A DNA stretch of 64,000 nt from Pseudomonas abietaniphila (GTDB lineage Bacteria; Pseudomonadota; Gammaproteobacteria; Pseudomonadales; Pseudomonadaceae): NCBI RefSeq assembly GCF_039697315.1, contig NZ_CP155619.1, positions 1,240,001-1,304,000 of the forward strand, written 5' to 3'. A program made the position numbers and the translations under genes. Every line of letters begins with the position of its first letter. Position 1 is the stretch's first letter. Below the pieces are notes generated by a model. The model was not told where the DNA came from. It was given only the letters and a program-made list of their open reading frames with translations, and did not search any database. Shown piece by piece: positions 21,991-61,075 of this stretch.

Positions 21991-22126
21991 CTGTAGGCGC
22001 GTGGCGTGTCCCGCGATCGGCTGCGCAGCAGTCGTCAACGGTGAAATACGGTGTATCAGGCAGATAGCACTTCATCCTTTTGCTGCCGGTTCCCGGCAGA
22101 TCGCGGGACAAGCCGCGCTCCTACAG
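21991..22126. repeat. REP inverted pair upstream of ilvA
   Basis: The left arm (CTGTAGGCGCGTGGCGTGTC, 21991 on) and the right arm ending 22126 are complementary across about 28 bp with two or three mismatches, enclosing about 80 bp. The right arm stops 11 bp before the ilvA -35 element. The rest of the gap (21715-21990) shows no gene I can support. Confidence 0.75.
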
Positions 22127-22136
22127 GTGCCAGCTC

Positions 22137-22164
22137 TTGACGTACCTGTCCTGTTCGCCATAGT
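22137..22164 (+). promoter_or_regulatory. Sigma-70 promoter of the ilvA leader
   Basis: TTGACG (22137-22142), a 16-bp spacer and CATAGT (22159-22164). The start of transcription should lie near 22170-22172, only 2-4 nt before the leader-peptide ATG at 22174. Confidence 0.6.
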
Positions 22165-22173
22165 CTTCGGGTC

Positions 22174-22239
22174 ATGAACGTTACCCAGCATTTCTTCGGC
22201 CAGATAATTATTACCGCCATTCCAGTCATGGCGGGTTAG
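22174..22239 (+). CDS. ilvA leader peptide (attenuator)
   Basis: A 21-residue ORF, MNVTQHFFGQ then IIITAIPVMAG and a TAG stop. Codons 11-13 are three consecutive Ile codons (ATA ATT ATT), followed by a Thr and another Ile at codon 16, as expected for a peptide that senses charged tRNA-Ile and perhaps tRNA-Thr. The last codons form arm 2 of the attenuator hairpins. There is no ribosome-binding site, and the predicted transcript starts almost at the ATG, so translation would be nearly leaderless. Confidence 0.7.
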   Translation: MNVTQHFFGQIIITAIPVMAG

Positions 22240-22279
22240 CCGACGTTTGCACCGAACCCGCCCTAGAGGCGGGTTTTTT
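22214..22279 (+). promoter_or_regulatory. Transcription attenuator of ilvA (arms 1-4)
   Basis: Arm 1 CCGCCAT (22214-22220) pairs with ATGGCGG (22228-22234). Arm 2 GGCGGGTT (22230-22237) can instead pair with arm 3 AACCCGCC (22255-22262), the antiterminator. Arm 3 can also pair with arm 4 GGCGGGTT (22268-22275), which continues into six Ts: the terminator. A ribosome stalled on the Ile codons at 22204-22212 would block arm 1 and free arm 2; one at the stop codon (22237) would cover arm 2 and allow termination. Same logic as the enterobacterial ilv and trp leaders. Confidence 0.8.
22255..22279 (+). terminator. Attenuator terminator upstream of ilvA
   Basis: Arms 3 and 4 of the attenuator: an 8-bp GC-rich stem (AACCCGCC/GGCGGGTT), 5-nt loop, T run 22274-22279. 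It lies 120 bp before the ilvA start. Confidence 0.85.
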
Positions 22280-22321
22280 CTCTCTGTCTCCCGGGCCCAA
22301 ATCTCGAATCAGGAGTCAGAC

Positions 22322-22402
22322 ATGATCATCATCCGCCCTTCCCTCGCCGTCTTCTTGTCACGCCTGATCATCGCCACCCCTTCGACGAGGCCGACACGAT
22401 GA
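22322..22402 (+). CDS. Short upstream ORF overlapping the ilvA start
   Basis: A 26-residue ORF reading MIIIRPSLAVFLSRLIIATP and ending in TRPTR. It has the strongest ribosome site in the region (CAGGAG, 7 nt before the ATG), and its TGA overlaps the ilvA ATG (ATGA). Three Ile codons follow the start and two more lie inside. It probably couples translation to ilvA and may add a second isoleucine-sensitive step. No known family. Confidence 0.55.
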   Translation: MIIIRPSLAVFLSRLIIATPSTRPTR

Positions 22403-23952
22403 ACCAGATGCTCGAGAAAACGCTGGCCCAAGGCGACCTGCTCAATCACTACGTCAAAAAAATCCTCACCTCGCGCGTCTACGACGTGGCCGTGGAAACC
22501 CCGCTGCACGGCGCTCGTCAGCTGTCCGAGCGGCTGGGCAACCAGGTGTTGCTCAAGCGCGAAGACCTGCAGCCGGTGTTCTCCTTCAAGATTCGTGGCG
22601 CCTACAACAAGCTGGCCCAGTTGAGCCCGGAAGAACTGGCGCGGGGCGTGGTCACGGCGTCGGCGGGCAACCATGCGCAAGGCCTGGCGCTGGCGGCGAA
22701 GACCCTGGGGGTGTCGGCCACCATCGTGATGCCCAAGACCACCCCGGAGATCAAGGTCGAAGGCGTGCGCTCGCGCGGCGGCAAGGTGGTGCTGCACGGC
22801 GACTCGTTCCCGGAGGCGCTGGCGTATTCGCTGAAGCTGGTCGAGGAAAAAGGCTACGTCTACATCCACCCTTACGACGATCCAGACACCATCGCCGGGC
22901 AAGGCACGGTGGCCATGGAAATCCTGCGTCAGCACCCGGGCCAACTGGACGCGATCTTCGTGCCGGTGGGCGGCGGCGGGCTGATCGCCGGCATCGCGGC
23001 GTACGTGAAATACCTGCGTCCGGAGATCAAGGTGATCGGCGTCGAACCCGACGACTCCAACTGCCTGCAACAGGCCATGGCCTATGGCGAGCGGGTCGTG
23101 CTGCAGCAGGTCGGGCTGTTTGCCGACGGCGTGGCCGTGGCGCAGATCGGCCAGTACACCTTCGACATCTGCAAGGATTACGTTGATGAGGTGATCACGG
23201 TCAGCACCGACGAGATCTGCGCGGCGATCAAGGACATCTACGACGACACCCGCTCGATCACCGAGCCAGCGGGCGCGCTGGGCGTGGCCGGGATCAAGCG
23301 CTACACCGAGCAGTATGGCGTCAGCGGCCAGACCTTCGTCGCCATTGATTCAGGCGCCAACGTCAATTTCGACCGCCTGCGCCACGTCGCCGAGCGCGCC
23401 GAGCTGGGCGAAGGCCGCGAAGCGATCATTGCCGTGACCATTCCCGAGCAGCCGGGCAGTTTCAAGGCGTTCTGCGAGGCCATCGGCAAGCGCCAGATCA
23501 CCGAATTCAACTACCGCTACCACACCGACCGCGAGGCGCACATCTTCGTCGGCGTGCAGACGCATCCTGAGAACGATCCGCGCAAGGCGTTGATCGCCAG
23601 CCTGACCGCGCAAGGCTTCCCGGTGTTGGACCTGACCGACAACGAACTGGCCAAGCTGCACCTGCGGCACATGGTCGGTGGGCATTCGGAGCGGGTCAGC
23701 GATGAAGTGGTGTTCCGCTTCGAATTCCCCGAGCGGCCGGGCGCGCTGTTCAACTTCCTCAACAAGCTGGGCGGCAAATGGAACATCTCGATGTTCCACT
23801 ACCGCAACCACGGCGCAGCGGACGGGCGCGTCGTCGCGGGTCTGGTGGTGCCGGAGGATGAACGGCATCTGGTGCCCAAGGCACTGGCGGAGATTGGTTA
23901 TCCGTACTGGGATGAGACGAACAACCCGGCGTACAAGTTGTTTCTCGGCTGA
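22399..23952 (+). CDS. ilvA: Threonine ammonia-lyase, biosynthetic
   Basis: Deaminates threonine to 2-oxobutanoate, the first committed step to isoleucine. The 517 residues hold the PLP catalytic domain (about 1-340), with the Lys in PVFSFKIRGAYNKL, SAGNHAQGLALAA, and the phosphate-binding VPVGGGGLIAG. Two C-terminal ACT-like regulatory domains follow (RPGSF-type starts at IPEQPGSFKAF and FPERPGALFNFL), for feedback by isoleucine and valine. The length fits the IlvA biosynthetic class. The start at 22399 is chosen for its overlap with the upstream short ORF and a nearby GAGG; a Met at codon 4 is the alternative. An attenuator controls it. Confidence 0.96.
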   Translation: MNQMLEKTLAQGDLLNHYVKKILTSRVYDVAVETPLHGARQLSERLGNQVLLKREDLQPVFSFKIRGAYNKLAQLSPEELARGVVTASAGNHAQGLALAAKTLGVSATIVMPKTTPEIKVEGVRSRGGKVVLHGDSFPEALAYSLKLVEEKGYVYIHPYDDPDTIAGQGTVAMEILRQHPGQLDAIFVPVGGGGLIAGIAAYVKYLRPEIKVIGVEPDDSNCLQQAMAYGERVVLQQVGLFADGVAVAQIGQYTFDICKDYVDEVITVSTDEICAAIKDIYDDTRSITEPAGALGVAGIKRYTEQYGVSGQTFVAIDSGANVNFDRLRHVAERAELGEGREAIIAVTIPEQPGSFKAFCEAIGKRQITEFNYRYHTDREAHIFVGVQTHPENDPRKALIASLTAQGFPVLDLTDNELAKLHLRHMVGGHSERVSDEVVFRFEFPERPGALFNFLNKLGGKWNISMFHYRNHGAADGRVVAGLVVPEDERHLVPKALAEIGYPYWDETNNPAYKLFLG

Positions 23953-23970
23953 CAGGGATCTACTTCTTTT

Positions 23971-23992
23971 GTAGGAGCGCGCTTGCCCGCGA
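23971..23992. repeat. Single REP arm after ilvA
   Basis: GTAGGAGCGCGCTTGCCCGC, the same arm as at 8091, with no partner arm nearby. It directly abuts the tandem repeat array. Confidence 0.65.
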
Positions 23993-23994
23993 GT

Positions 23995-24540
23995 GCGGTG
24001 AGTCAGTGAACACATCCATGACTGATATACCGCATTCGATGCCGTCGTAACCTCCGACGTCTCCCACAGGGACCGTATAGGCCCAGAGCCCTTGGTTGTC
24101 GCAAGACTTGTGACTGCCGCAGAACCTGTGGTTGCCTCAAATGTGTGGCTGGCGCAAACCTGGGGTGTCTCAAAATGTGGCTGGTGCAAAATCTGTGGGA
24201 GCTGCTGGAGGTTACGACAGTGGCGAATGCGGTGGGTCAGTGAACACATCCATGACTGACATACCGTATTCGCTGCCGTCGTAACCTCCGACGTCTCCCA
24301 CAGGGACCGTACAGGCCCAGAGCCCTTGGTTGTCGCAAGACTTGTGACTGCCGCAGAACCTGTGGTTGCCTCAAATGTGCGGCTGGCGCAAACCTGGGGT
24401 TGCCTCAAATGTATGGCTGCCGCAAACCTGTGGGAGCTGCTGGAGGTTACGACAGTGGCGAATGCGGTGGGTCAGTCATAACACCGGAGACTGTTACACC
24501 GCCTACCCTGATCTCGCAACCTTCGACCTTTCCCACAGAG
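23995..24540. repeat. Nested tandem repeat: 234-bp unit, two full copies and a partial third
   Basis: The phrase GCGGTG(A/G)GTCAGT recurs with spacings of 234 and 235 bp (GTCAG at 24002, 24236 and 24471). Copies 1 and 2 differ at few positions; copy 3 breaks off after about 75 bp. Inside each unit (24094-24205, 24328-24438) are about six degenerate 17-bp microrepeats of the form GGCTGGCGCAAACCTGT. The junction of copies 1 and 2 has a 111-bp inverted repeat (24193-24303) with ends CTGTGGGAGC and GTCTCCCACAG, inner arms GGAGGTTACGAC and GTCGTAACCTCC. No gene is visible. Confidence 0.85.
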
Positions 24541-28187: not shown

Positions 28188-28264
28188 TGGCGCAGCGGAC
28201 GGGACTCGAACCCGCGACCCCCGGCGTGACAGGCCGGTATTCTAACCGACTGAACTACCGCTGC
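28188..28264 (-). tRNA. tRNA-Asp (GTC), copy 2
   Basis: 77 nt with the 3' CCA encoded. The acceptor GCAGCGG pairs with CCGCTGC, the D arm is TAGTTCAGTCGGTTAGAATA, the anticodon loop CTGTCAC carries GTC, and the T arm is GCGGGTTCGAGTCCCGT. The sequence is identical to the copy at 28393. Confidence 0.97.
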
Positions 28265-28392
28265 GTGTCGCACAGACTTGCATCTGTTTAACTCTGTTGA
28301 AACCGGCTTTTTAGAAGCCTGCTTCGTATAACACTGATTGATTGCCTTGGCGTTCAATCTCAAACCGGACTCAATATCCGATCTGGAAAATA

Positions 28393-28469
28393 TGGCGCAG
28401 CGGACGGGACTCGAACCCGCGACCCCCGGCGTGACAGGCCGGTATTCTAACCGACTGAACTACCGCTGC
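28393..28469 (-). tRNA. tRNA-Asp (GTC), copy 1
   Basis: Identical over 77 nt to the copy at 28188, from which it is separated by 128 bp of unrelated spacer. Second gene of the Val-Asp-Asp operon. Confidence 0.97.
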
Positions 28470-28557
28470 GCAGTGGTGGACTTGCGTCCTGCTGAATCTC
28501 AGTAACCTTCAGCGTGTCTTCCAAACTTCGTAGCGTCAGCTACTCAGCGCTCAACGA

Positions 28558-28633
28558 TGGTGGGTGATGACGGGATCGAACCGCCGACATTCTGCTTGTA
28601 AGGCAGACGCTCTCCCGGCTGAGCTAATCACCC
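28558..28633 (-). tRNA. tRNA-Val (TAC)
   Basis: 76 nt, CCA encoded. The acceptor GGGTGAT pairs with ATCACCC; the anticodon loop CTTACAA carries TAC; the T arm is GGCGGTTCGATCCCGTC. First gene of the operon. Confidence 0.97.
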
Positions 28634-46484: not shown

Positions 46485-46561
46485 GGTATCAGCAGCGGTC
46501 TGATATTCCAAAACTGTTTAAAAAACGTACAGCACAGCGCTGGACGCCCGTGGAATATGAC

Positions 46562-46571
46562 CAATACTTAA
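46562..46571 (+). promoter_or_regulatory. RpoS-type extended -10 of the RgsA sRNA
   Basis: CAATACTTAA closely matches the sigma-S extended -10 (CTATACTTAA), with TSS expected near 46578. RgsA is RpoS-dependent in P. aeruginosa and P. fluorescens (recall). Confidence 0.6.
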
Positions 46572-46577
46572 ATTCGC

Positions 46578-46694
46578 TGATGCGGCATCTCCCCCAAGTG
46601 CCGGCATCGGTAAAGGCACCAATGGATAGCGTGTCTTTGTTTTACTCCTAATGGTCTTAACCCGGATTCACCCCCCAGAACCCGGGTTTTTTTT
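46578..46694 (+). ncRNA. rgsA: Probable RgsA (P16) small regulatory RNA
   Basis: A transcript of about 117 nt between the class V aminotransferase and tatD. It ends in a rho-independent terminator: AACCCGG (46659-46665) with CCCGGGTT (46681-46688), then eight Ts. Size, position beside tatD and a sigma-S-like -10 at 46562 match RgsA, which in PAO1 lies between PA2958 and PA2959 (tatD). RgsA acts with Hfq in the stress response. The 5' end is inferred from the promoter, and the identification rests on synteny and memory. Confidence 0.7.
46659..46694 (+). terminator. Terminator of RgsA
   Basis: AACCCGG and CCCGGGTT stem around a 15-nt C-rich loop (ATTCACCCCCCAGAA), followed by a run of eight Ts. 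Confidence 0.85.
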
Positions 46695-60422: not shown

Positions 60423-61075
60423 CGCCGCCAAAAGCGGCCTGGACAGCGGACAAACGGTATGACAGCCGGCCCTGCCCAACGCAATTCACGAGGGCGCGAG
60501 GCCGCCCTACGGGGCTTTCGGTGACAACGGAGCGTCAGCAAGCGTAACGAGCGCAGGTGACATGAGGCCTGAAACAAGCCCGATCGCAGAGTGAGTCACT
60601 CGCCATCGAGGCCCATGTTCAAGGCCAGTTCACAAAGTGCAGTCGCTGGCAGACAAACCGGGCGAATGCTTCGGAAACCGAAGCCTTAATTTGAGCCATG
60701 ACGCGTGAACTTCCCATCGAAGATCGCGTAAATGCAAACCCGCTGCGGATTCAGCGCGCGGCAGCACCCGAATTATCAGGGATACGTGTGGGGTGGAGAC
60801 GCACAACCGTCGGACTGTGTAGCAAAAGGCTTTATTCAAGACGCTTCATATCGTCCGCTACCGATGGTTGATTCCTCCTCCTGACCAAGCTTTTGCTGAC
60901 AGGGTGTCATTTGTCACCACAGCAAGCAGGAAACGTCGTCGCGACTACGGCCCCGCTGGCCGAATATCGCTAGACACTGGAGTGTCCAAGCACTCCTGAC
61001 GCGCCCTGACACCGACCGTGAGAAGTCGTGTGTGCCGAACGCCGTTTCCGGCAGCCCGGAAACCGACGGTACTAC
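60423..61075 (+). promoter_or_regulatory. Long structured 5' leader of rne
   Basis: About 650 nt between the promoter and the rne ATG without a supported gene. Hairpins visible: GCTTCGG/CCGAAGC (60668-60684), a TTGCTG...CAGCAA stem (60893-60925), and a GTTTCCGG/CCGGAAAC hairpin just before the start (61044-61063). In E. coli the 361-nt rne leader lets RNase E cut and lower its own mRNA; a similar role is likely here but is inference. Confidence 0.6.

Follow-up and report, generated by a model that had tools for sequence, protein, structure and literature searches.

What controls the threonine ammonia-lyase gene ilvA in the window, a 64,000-nucleotide stretch of Pseudomonas abietaniphila DNA, and what is the function of the small RNA sequence lying upstream of it? 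The original prediction, made from the sequence alone, placed a complete attenuator in front of this gene. All of its parts (promoter, leader, three helices and a T run) were found at 22137-22279, and they are listed in Table 1 together with the features further downstream. We consider it very likely that they form a conserved ribosome-mediated transcription attenuator for isoleucine, which responds to charged tRNA-Ile and regulates a second threonine deaminase.

Anatomy of the element

The leader encodes 21 residues with three consecutive Ile codons, as predicted. A single base separates the last of these codons from arm 1, and the leader stop codon lies at the end of arm 2, which extends to its first base. 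The helices had been described as 7-8 bp long and mutually exclusive. Each does exclude the next, and the lengths agree for 1:2 (7 bp) and 2:3 (8 bp), but the terminator helix 3:4 has 9 bp. The second short ORF also overlaps the ilvA start through ATGA as proposed. In the region 22000-22450 there is one promoter-like site (22137-22164; mean of 0.1 in shuffled sequences) and one terminator-like site (22254-22276, 9 bp; mean of 0.3). The promoter is of the sigma-70 type. The fold prediction suggested as a check gave a negative result: the plain-strand fold of 22170-22300 is no more stable than that of shuffled sequences (z -1.01; 33 of 200 shuffles fold at least as well). The case for an attenuator therefore rests on architecture and conservation.

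Table 1. Features of the ilvA upstream region (window coordinates)
Feature	Position	Strand	Remarks
-35 element TTGACG	22137-22142	+	Direct read; starts 37 nt before leader ATG
Alternative -10 element CATAGT	22159-22164	+	Preferred by promoter scan, spacer 16
Putative -10 element TAGTCT	22161-22166	+	Spacer 18, 7 nt before ATG
Predicted transcription start	22174	+	A of leader AUG; based on promoter spacing and C at -1 in 91/93 loci
Leader ORF 1, MNVTQHFFGQIIITAIPVMAG	22174-22239	+	21 residues, TAG stop
Three adjacent Ile codons, ATA ATT ATT	22204-22212	+	Direct read
Rfam RF00624 (P9) match	22204-22277	+	93.3 bits; gathering score 43
Arm 1, CCGCCAT	22214-22220	+	Partner 22228-22234
Additional Ile codon of leader	22219-22221	+	Direct read
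Arm 2, ATGGCGGGTT	22228-22237	+	Partner arm 1 or, as 22230-22237, arm 3
Arm 3, AACCCGCC	22255-22262	+	Antiterminator with arm 2, terminator with arm 4
Arm 4, GGCGGGTT	22268-22275	+	Intrinsic terminator; stem 22254-22262 with 22268-22276
T run of terminator	22274-22279	+	Direct read
Arm 5, CTGTCTCCCGGG	22284-22295	+	Complements 22266-22272 (GAGGCGG; plus CCC/GGG) and the downstream Shine-Dalgarno; putative function
Arm 6, Shine-Dalgarno AGGAG (22311-22315) of ORF 2 and flank TCAGA	22311-22320	+	Predicted pairing with arm 5
ORF 2, MIIIRPSLAVFLSRLIIATPSTRPTR	22322-22402	+	Ile clusters at codons 2-4 and 16-17 (22367-22372); ATGA overlap with ilvA
ilvA Shine-Dalgarno GAGG	22387-22390	+	Predicted pairing with ORF 2 codons 20-21
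ilvA, threonine ammonia-lyase, 517 aa	22399-23952	+	Domains PALP and Thr_dehydrat_C

We infer both the stalling response to isoleucine shortage and its direction from the sequence. RNA polymerase would start at the leader AUG or within 1-2 nt of it, and a ribosome would load on the 5' end without a Shine-Dalgarno sequence. When isoleucine is ample, the ribosome would reach the UAG at 22237-22239 and cover arm 2, so that the 3:4 terminator forms and ends transcription near 22279; the product, the 'P9 sRNA', would be about 106 nt long. Under isoleucine shortage, the ribosome would stall on the Ile codons at 22204-22212 and cover arm 1; arms 2 and 3 would then pair as the antiterminator, no terminator would form and ilvA would be transcribed. 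Less certainly, arm 5 may add translational control by pairing with arm 4 or with the next Shine-Dalgarno, and ORF 2 may be a second Ile-rich reader coupled to ilvA in the clade of the window.

The element corresponds to a known RNA family. Positions 22204-22277 match Rfam RF00624, 'Pseudomonas sRNA P9', over model positions 1-74 of 74 (93.3 bits, E 5.4e-19; gathering cut-off 43 bits). In Rfam release 15 the family is of type 'Gene' and is described as an sRNA; P9 reportedly came out of an early sRNA screen in P. aeruginosa. Its consensus begins with AUUAUUAUUACCGCC, the Ile codons of the leader, and the model ends within the terminator; the promoter and the leader start lie outside it. The Rfam family and the window element thus have the same sequence and hairpins and differ in how they are read, there as an sRNA gene and here as the 3' part of a cis-acting isoleucine attenuator. 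Other Rfam matches in the window are the rne-II leader, the RgsA sRNA and three tRNAs (60782-61066, 46489-46685 and 28191-28633).

Distribution of P9 and the second threonine deaminase

P9 was detected above the cut-off in 105 of 149 sampled Pseudomonas genomes (109/149 at an E-value of 0.001 or better) and in none of 14 control genomes. The primary locus was retrieved for 93 of the 105 genomes, one each, and 12 were left out. A threonine-deaminase (ilvA-like) sequence lies downstream of P9 in 92 of these 93 loci. The exceptional cases are L132, with an ilvA remnant only, L010, with an interrupted gene, and L006, where the gene is cut. In L172 (genome G007) a second, weaker P9 match begins 88 nt past the start of the first, with Ns at the join, and is either a tandem copy or an assembly artefact.

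At the family level P9 matches occur in 89 of 198 genomes. Thirty loci were returned; the window (L002) and L028 were already included, leaving 28 rows, among which L203 coincides in place with L160. An Ile leader and downstream ilvA sequence are present in each of the 28. At the order level matches are found in 26/194 genomes, 8 of them above the cut-off. P9 hits lacking an Ile leader of this kind were left out (L192-L196, L237-L239, L243, L244 and L246-L249).

The original prediction spoke of a single threonine deaminase gene, which is incorrect. The genome carries another ilvA, which adjoins rpiA and has no P9 match at the gathering threshold. Window positions 22439-24433 are 97.5% identical over 1996 nt to this other copy (G000:C1:3496892, L119), a stretch that includes about 480 nt of repeat-rich downstream sequence. 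Short tandem repeats with units of 17 and 33-34 nt (CGCAAACCTGTGGCTGC) are located at 24100-24433 and occur downstream of both copies. The similarity of the two copies can be read as a recent duplication or as gene conversion.

Two copies are common in the genus. At least two ilvA matches (E 1e-80) were found in 102 of 149 genomes and one match in 47. Among P9-positive genomes 101/105 have at least two (exceptions G030, G066, G085 and G115), and 43/44 P9-negative genomes have one (exception G123). Fisher's test of this association gives P 1.4e-31 uncorrected for kinship, a value that overstates independence because the genomes are related. For G056, G123 and G126 even the best matches reach only E 1e-138 to 1e-185, so the matches in these genomes may be pieces of one gene. 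An nhmmer search of 80 named ilvA loci placed P9 upstream of 11 and not before the other 69; rpiA is within the flank of 0/11 P9-positive and 69/69 P9-negative loci. P9 marks the second, rpiA-unlinked ilvA. Its reading frame is often short: in 53 of the 93 loci (including the interrupted L010) a stop occurs before 400 aa, which means a gene without most or all of the C-terminal regulatory region, while 38 genes exceed that length and the other two are a cut gene and a remnant. A gene named ilvA2 is present in P. aeruginosa PA14 according to excerpts of PMC5542712, without this implying that it is the P9-linked copy.

Conservation of the leader, the start site and the pairings

Conservation of the Ile codons in relatives, on which the prediction was in part to stand or fall, was confirmed. 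All 93 Pseudomonas loci have leaders of 20-22 residues with at least two adjacent Ile codons ('II') directly 5' of arm 1, and tandem Ile is also present in 28/28 family-level rows. The C-terminal core of the leader is mostly IITAIPxLAG or IITAIIxLAG, and the N-terminal half drifts while the Ile-coding frame is kept (93/93). The codons used for Ile in the 93 leaders are ATT (304), ATC (33) and ATA (5), whereas the ilvA gene of the window uses ATC 25 and ATT 5 times. A scan of two leader peptides and ORF 2 against NCBIfam returned zero matches.

These observations bear on whether P9 is instead a trans-acting sRNA gene which happens to lie upstream of ilvA, with an incidental leader ORF and incidental pairings. 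Rfam does file P9 as a gene and sRNA, and an attenuator RNA can work in trans, as reported for S. meliloti trpL in the excerpts of PMC7298713. We regard this explanation as very improbable: an ilvA sequence follows in 92/93 loci, the Ile frame persists in all 93 alongside a drifting N-terminal half, and the three helices are mutually exclusive. The location of P9 and the kept frame argue for cis action.

A second question is which amino acid would be sensed. Thr follows the Ile codons almost everywhere, most leaders read II-T, and several related elements before SnoaL-like and kinase genes read IITT, so the sensor might be threonine, or Ile and Thr together. However, this Thr is encoded where arm 1 begins, so the residue may be held there by structure, and it is replaced by Ser (L174), Pro (L186-L188) or Ile or Leu (L228-L230) while Ile-Ile is kept. 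The product pathway of ilvA is also that of isoleucine. A role for threonine is quite unlikely, and isoleucine alone is the preferred signal.

The promoter lies at a nearly fixed distance from the leader. TTGAC is found 35-38 nt upstream of the leader ATG in 93/93 Pseudomonas loci (37 nt in 34, 35 nt in 27, 36 nt in 19 and 38 nt in 13) and in 28/28 family-level rows (one place counted twice), although the ATG was picked as the in-frame one fitting this spacing and the selection favours it. In the window the picked ATG is the sole in-frame start. The best -10 hexamer, chosen from three spacers, ends 6-9 nt before the ATG in all 121 ilvA rows (one place counted twice). The base at -1 is C in 91/93 loci, and a Shine-Dalgarno-like 4-mer within 18 nt upstream occurs in only 2/93. 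The two marks of a leaderless mRNA, a promoter that puts the AUG near +1 and a start without a Shine-Dalgarno, are thus both present in the sequence. Given the TTGAC spacing and the scarcity of Shine-Dalgarno-like motifs, the ilvA leader is probably leaderless, with transcription starting at the A of the AUG or 1-2 bases upstream.

The alternative is an attenuator with a normal 5' leader, which would start further upstream and have a weak ribosome site. In its favour, the promoter, which gives the predicted start, is a consensus match, and relatives of the IITT type (L184-L191, L225-L227) lack TTGAC at the ilvA-type spacing. The leaderless feature is therefore not common to the whole wider family. 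It is nevertheless unlikely that the ilvA element has such a 5' leader, in view of the joint spacing of both promoter boxes in 121/121 ilvA rows, the rarity of Shine-Dalgarno-like 4-mers and a TTGAC 34-37 nt before the ATG in 11/11 elements that precede a P-loop kinase gene.

The three pairings were examined in alignment A1, which consists of 75 of 143 P9-like rows with near-identical sequences dropped and elements at other genes included. Paired cells amount to 91.4% for 1:2 (31-58% in slid versions), 88.8% for 2:3 (slid 32-62%) and 95.4% for 3:4 (slid 40-62%). The main informative position is the column quartet 20/38/75/87, at which all three pairings are kept. For arms 1:2 it contains G-C in 56 sequences, A-U in 17, G-U in one and an unpaired combination in one; for 2:3, C-G in 56, U-G in 13, U-A in 5 and one unpaired, so that the pair is held in 74/75; for 3:4, G-C in 69, A-U in 5 and one unpaired. 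The changes are linked: G becomes A in arm 1 (17 sequences) and in arm 3 (5), and C becomes U in arms 2 and 4.

The compensatory changes proposed as a test are accordingly present in part. In the wider set one position covaries across four arms, but the arms of ilvA-linked sequences hardly vary, so the covariation support comes mainly from elements at other genes. The single covarying pair of 2:3 is not above shuffles (403/500 reach it). The column pair 42:71 of 2:3 is paired in just 17/75 sequences, and the outer pair 24:34 of 1:2 is unpaired in 41/75. What defines an attenuator was found here, namely a leader with tandem Ile codons, an intrinsic terminator before the gene and a conserved, mutually exclusive antiterminator, with weak covariation in 2:3.

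Arm 5, ORF 2 and related elements

The T run is followed by a conserved CTGTCTCCnGGG, arm 5. A Shine-Dalgarno within range precedes the next start in 113 of 121 ilvA rows, and its core pairs with the first 25 nt past the P9 match in 111 of these 113 in local folds. In alignment A2 (72 of 113 prepared sequences) the CTCC/GGAG core is paired in 51 to 54 of 54 ilvA rows. Arm 4 and its loop can also pair with arm 5: this 4:5 helix is paired in 93.8% of A2 cells (slid 35-66%), with matched changes at 19:46 (L184, L185), 20:45 (L163, L164) and 14:49. Two-sided changes number seven, and slid versions also reach seven, so the count is not decisive. The 4:5 pair 24:40 is held in 70/71 rows and the rival 5:6 pair 40:91 in 30/52 ilvA rows. 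Arm 5 is conserved and could pair either with arm 4 or with the next Shine-Dalgarno.

Folding calculations were used to compare the two states. When the antiterminator is enforced on an RNA that ends short of the Shine-Dalgarno, the arm 4-arm 5 pairing averages 0.94 and exceeds 0.5 in 121/121 rows; shuffled tails give 0.80. In the readthrough RNA at equilibrium, the Shine-Dalgarno of the ilvA set (113 of 121 rows) is unpaired at 0.21 with 2:3 and 0.20 with 3:4, being more open by over 0.1 with 2:3 in 11 loci and less open in 5. The corresponding values are 0.45 and 0.38 in the P-loop set (more open in 2/11, less in 0) and 0.55 and 0.46 in the IITT set plus L242 (more open in 3/10, less in 0). 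A simple thermodynamic relay that frees the Shine-Dalgarno is ruled out for the ilvA set by the equal hiding. A relay through arm 4 and arm 5 that depends on the order of synthesis is a hypothesis, for which the shuffled tails are a weak control.

The preference of arm 4 for its own arm 5 is variable. A foreign arm 5 is as favorable in 4:5 energy as the own one in 0/124 cases for L225 and L240, 0/125 for L242, 1/74 for L190, 2/125 for L185, 2/107 for L188, 3/125 for L184, 5/107 for L187, 12/119 for L228, 14/124 for L163 and L164, 14/125 for L231 and 41/74 for the window (L002). Compared with shuffled versions of itself, the own arm 5 does better than 95% of them in 67/121 ilvA, 11/11 P-loop, 7/9 IITT and 1/2 other rows.

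Arm 5 may merely hide the downstream Shine-Dalgarno, its match to arm 4 being a by-product of the purine-richness shared by arm 4 and the Shine-Dalgarno. We give this explanation nearly an even chance. It agrees with the local folds, with the equal hiding in both states across 113 loci, with the shuffled tails that pair with arm 4 too and with the common arm 4, which in the window shows no preference for its own arm 5. It accounts less well for the occupancy and matched changes of the 4:5 helix, and for arm 5 bases outside the Shine-Dalgarno pairing that are kept all the same (24:40 versus 40:91).

ORF 2 (25-38 residues, with a strong Shine-Dalgarno and the ATGA overlap with ilvA) is present in 22 of 24 checked loci of the clade of the window and absent in L010 and L216. 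In 22 loci of mostly other clades no similar ORF was apparent and ilvA lies past the terminator region. Of the 22 peptides 19 are distinct. Their Ile content is 14.7% of residues (shuffled sequence, 3.4%), and all 22 carry Ile within codons 2-4. Among 19 folded sequences, which are related to each other, 17 have an Ile codon at most four codons upstream of the codons whose predicted pairing hides the ilvA Shine-Dalgarno; shuffling the codons from the fifth onwards gives an expectation of 5.9. Ile richness and Ile near these predicted hiding codons make it plausible that ORF 2 is a second Ile reader coupled to ilvA. The early Ile cluster fits poorly with this idea, since stalling at codons 2-4 would keep ribosomes from ilvA. 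The sober alternative is plain translational coupling.

Related elements precede other genes. In L184-L191 and L225-L227, P9-like elements with leaders of the IITT type or similar (L190 lacks II) stand before genes that are SnoaL/DUF4440-like or AAA_33-like. Pfam or NCBIfam assignments were made on one or two proteins per kind and other neighbors were named by eye from similarity. L225 has both kinds of gene one after the other. For the AAA_33 protein of L184 there is a weak match to a homoserine kinase model (22 bits; cut-off 197). P9 and ilvA are separated by a SnoaL/DUF4440-like gene in L197, L205, L208, L212, L213, L218 and L219, in an apparent two-gene operon.

At the order level, 11 of 194 genomes, all from other Pseudomonadales families, have, immediately upstream of a P-loop kinase gene, an element with an Ile leader that looks leaderless (L228-L236, L240 and L245). 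Four or five Ile codons are usual in these leaders (e.g. MNTQRTQTTGRIIIIIP), within a range of two to five. Their Ile runs vary both in length and synonymously (RIIIIIP, RIILIIP, RIIIIP, also KIITIA and RITITP), which favors selection on the residue. The one kinase tested is weakly similar to PRK08118, 'DNA topology modulation protein'. In L241 and L242, from other families, Ile-rich leaders (MNRLLSAQIIMIMHTKRLLVD and MYRVNSSNIMMIIRTGNRLVG) and a terminator precede ilvA relatives that are 38-41% identical; these are possibly independent Ile attenuators.

Taken together, P9 could be a leaderless Ile sensor that acts twice. The 2:3 antiterminator would free arm 4 to capture the emerging arm 5, leaving the next Shine-Dalgarno open ahead of any hiding, and in the clade of the window ORF 2 would read Ile again and open the ilvA Shine-Dalgarno; related sensors would stand before the P-loop kinase and SnoaL-like genes. 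This extended proposal is tentative and on balance doubtful.

Comparison with known systems and significance

The enteric ilv, thr, leu, his and trp operons are controlled by ribosome-mediated attenuators whose leader peptide is rich in the regulated residue. The P9 element shares with them the residue-rich leader, the 1:2/2:3/3:4 logic and the intrinsic terminator; it differs in its target, a second threonine deaminase, in a leader without a Shine-Dalgarno and in an extra arm that faces the downstream Shine-Dalgarno. A precedent for the leaderless start is the trpLE(G) attenuator of Sinorhizobium meliloti (rnTrpL/peTrpL), where, in the excerpts of PMC7298713, the 5' end of the RNA is the AUG of the leader ORF. 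That system belongs to an alphaproteobacterium, senses Trp and has a 14-aa leader, and the likeness drawn here is one of function. In Pseudomonas itself, attenuation of amino-acid genes is known for P. putida trpE and trpGDC from a reference title in PMC8297930, although for Trp and other genes. The Bacillus subtilis vmlR leader, as described in excerpts of PMC9226507, combines uORF stalling and a terminator with a subsequent Shine-Dalgarno-sequestering hairpin that is disrupted upon induction. It resembles the proposed arm 5 relay in this succession of terminator and hiding hairpin; its antibiotic-induced stalling, NusG pausing and Gram-positive host set it apart, and it is likened here by its working.

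The original prediction knew of no described attenuator at this gene in Pseudomonas. The RNA had been catalogued, as P9, but among the matches listed from open-licence full texts, a scope outside which most subscription papers fall, no description of P9 or Pseudomonas ilvA2 as an attenuator was found. Naville and Gautheret 2010 (PMC2965389) does not mention ilv, isoleucine or threonine; a P. syringae start-site paper (PMC3247240) does not mention leaderless, threonine, attenuat(ion), Rfam, riboswitch or sRNA; and ilvA, isoleucine and threonine are absent from the available main text of a P. aeruginosa 3'-end paper (PMC8297930). As far as these searches show, recognition of P9 as an attenuator is new. 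The way in which transcription is controlled belongs to a known type; what is new is the probable leaderless start, the extra arm, the Ile-rich ORF 2 and the related targets.

If P9 is read as an attenuator, a function can be assigned to an Rfam family which the database still lists as an sRNA. This reading also suggests why many Pseudomonas keep two threonine deaminases, as the P9-linked copy would switch on at isoleucine shortage. If true, a leaderless leader peptide in an attenuator from the Gammaproteobacteria would offer a clean way to test how the ribosome keeps up with RNA polymerase on leaderless RNA. The related elements suggest connections, open to testing, between isoleucine supply and the P-loop kinase and SnoaL-like genes, and the dual-acting sensor, if real, would put these genes in the isoleucine-starvation response.
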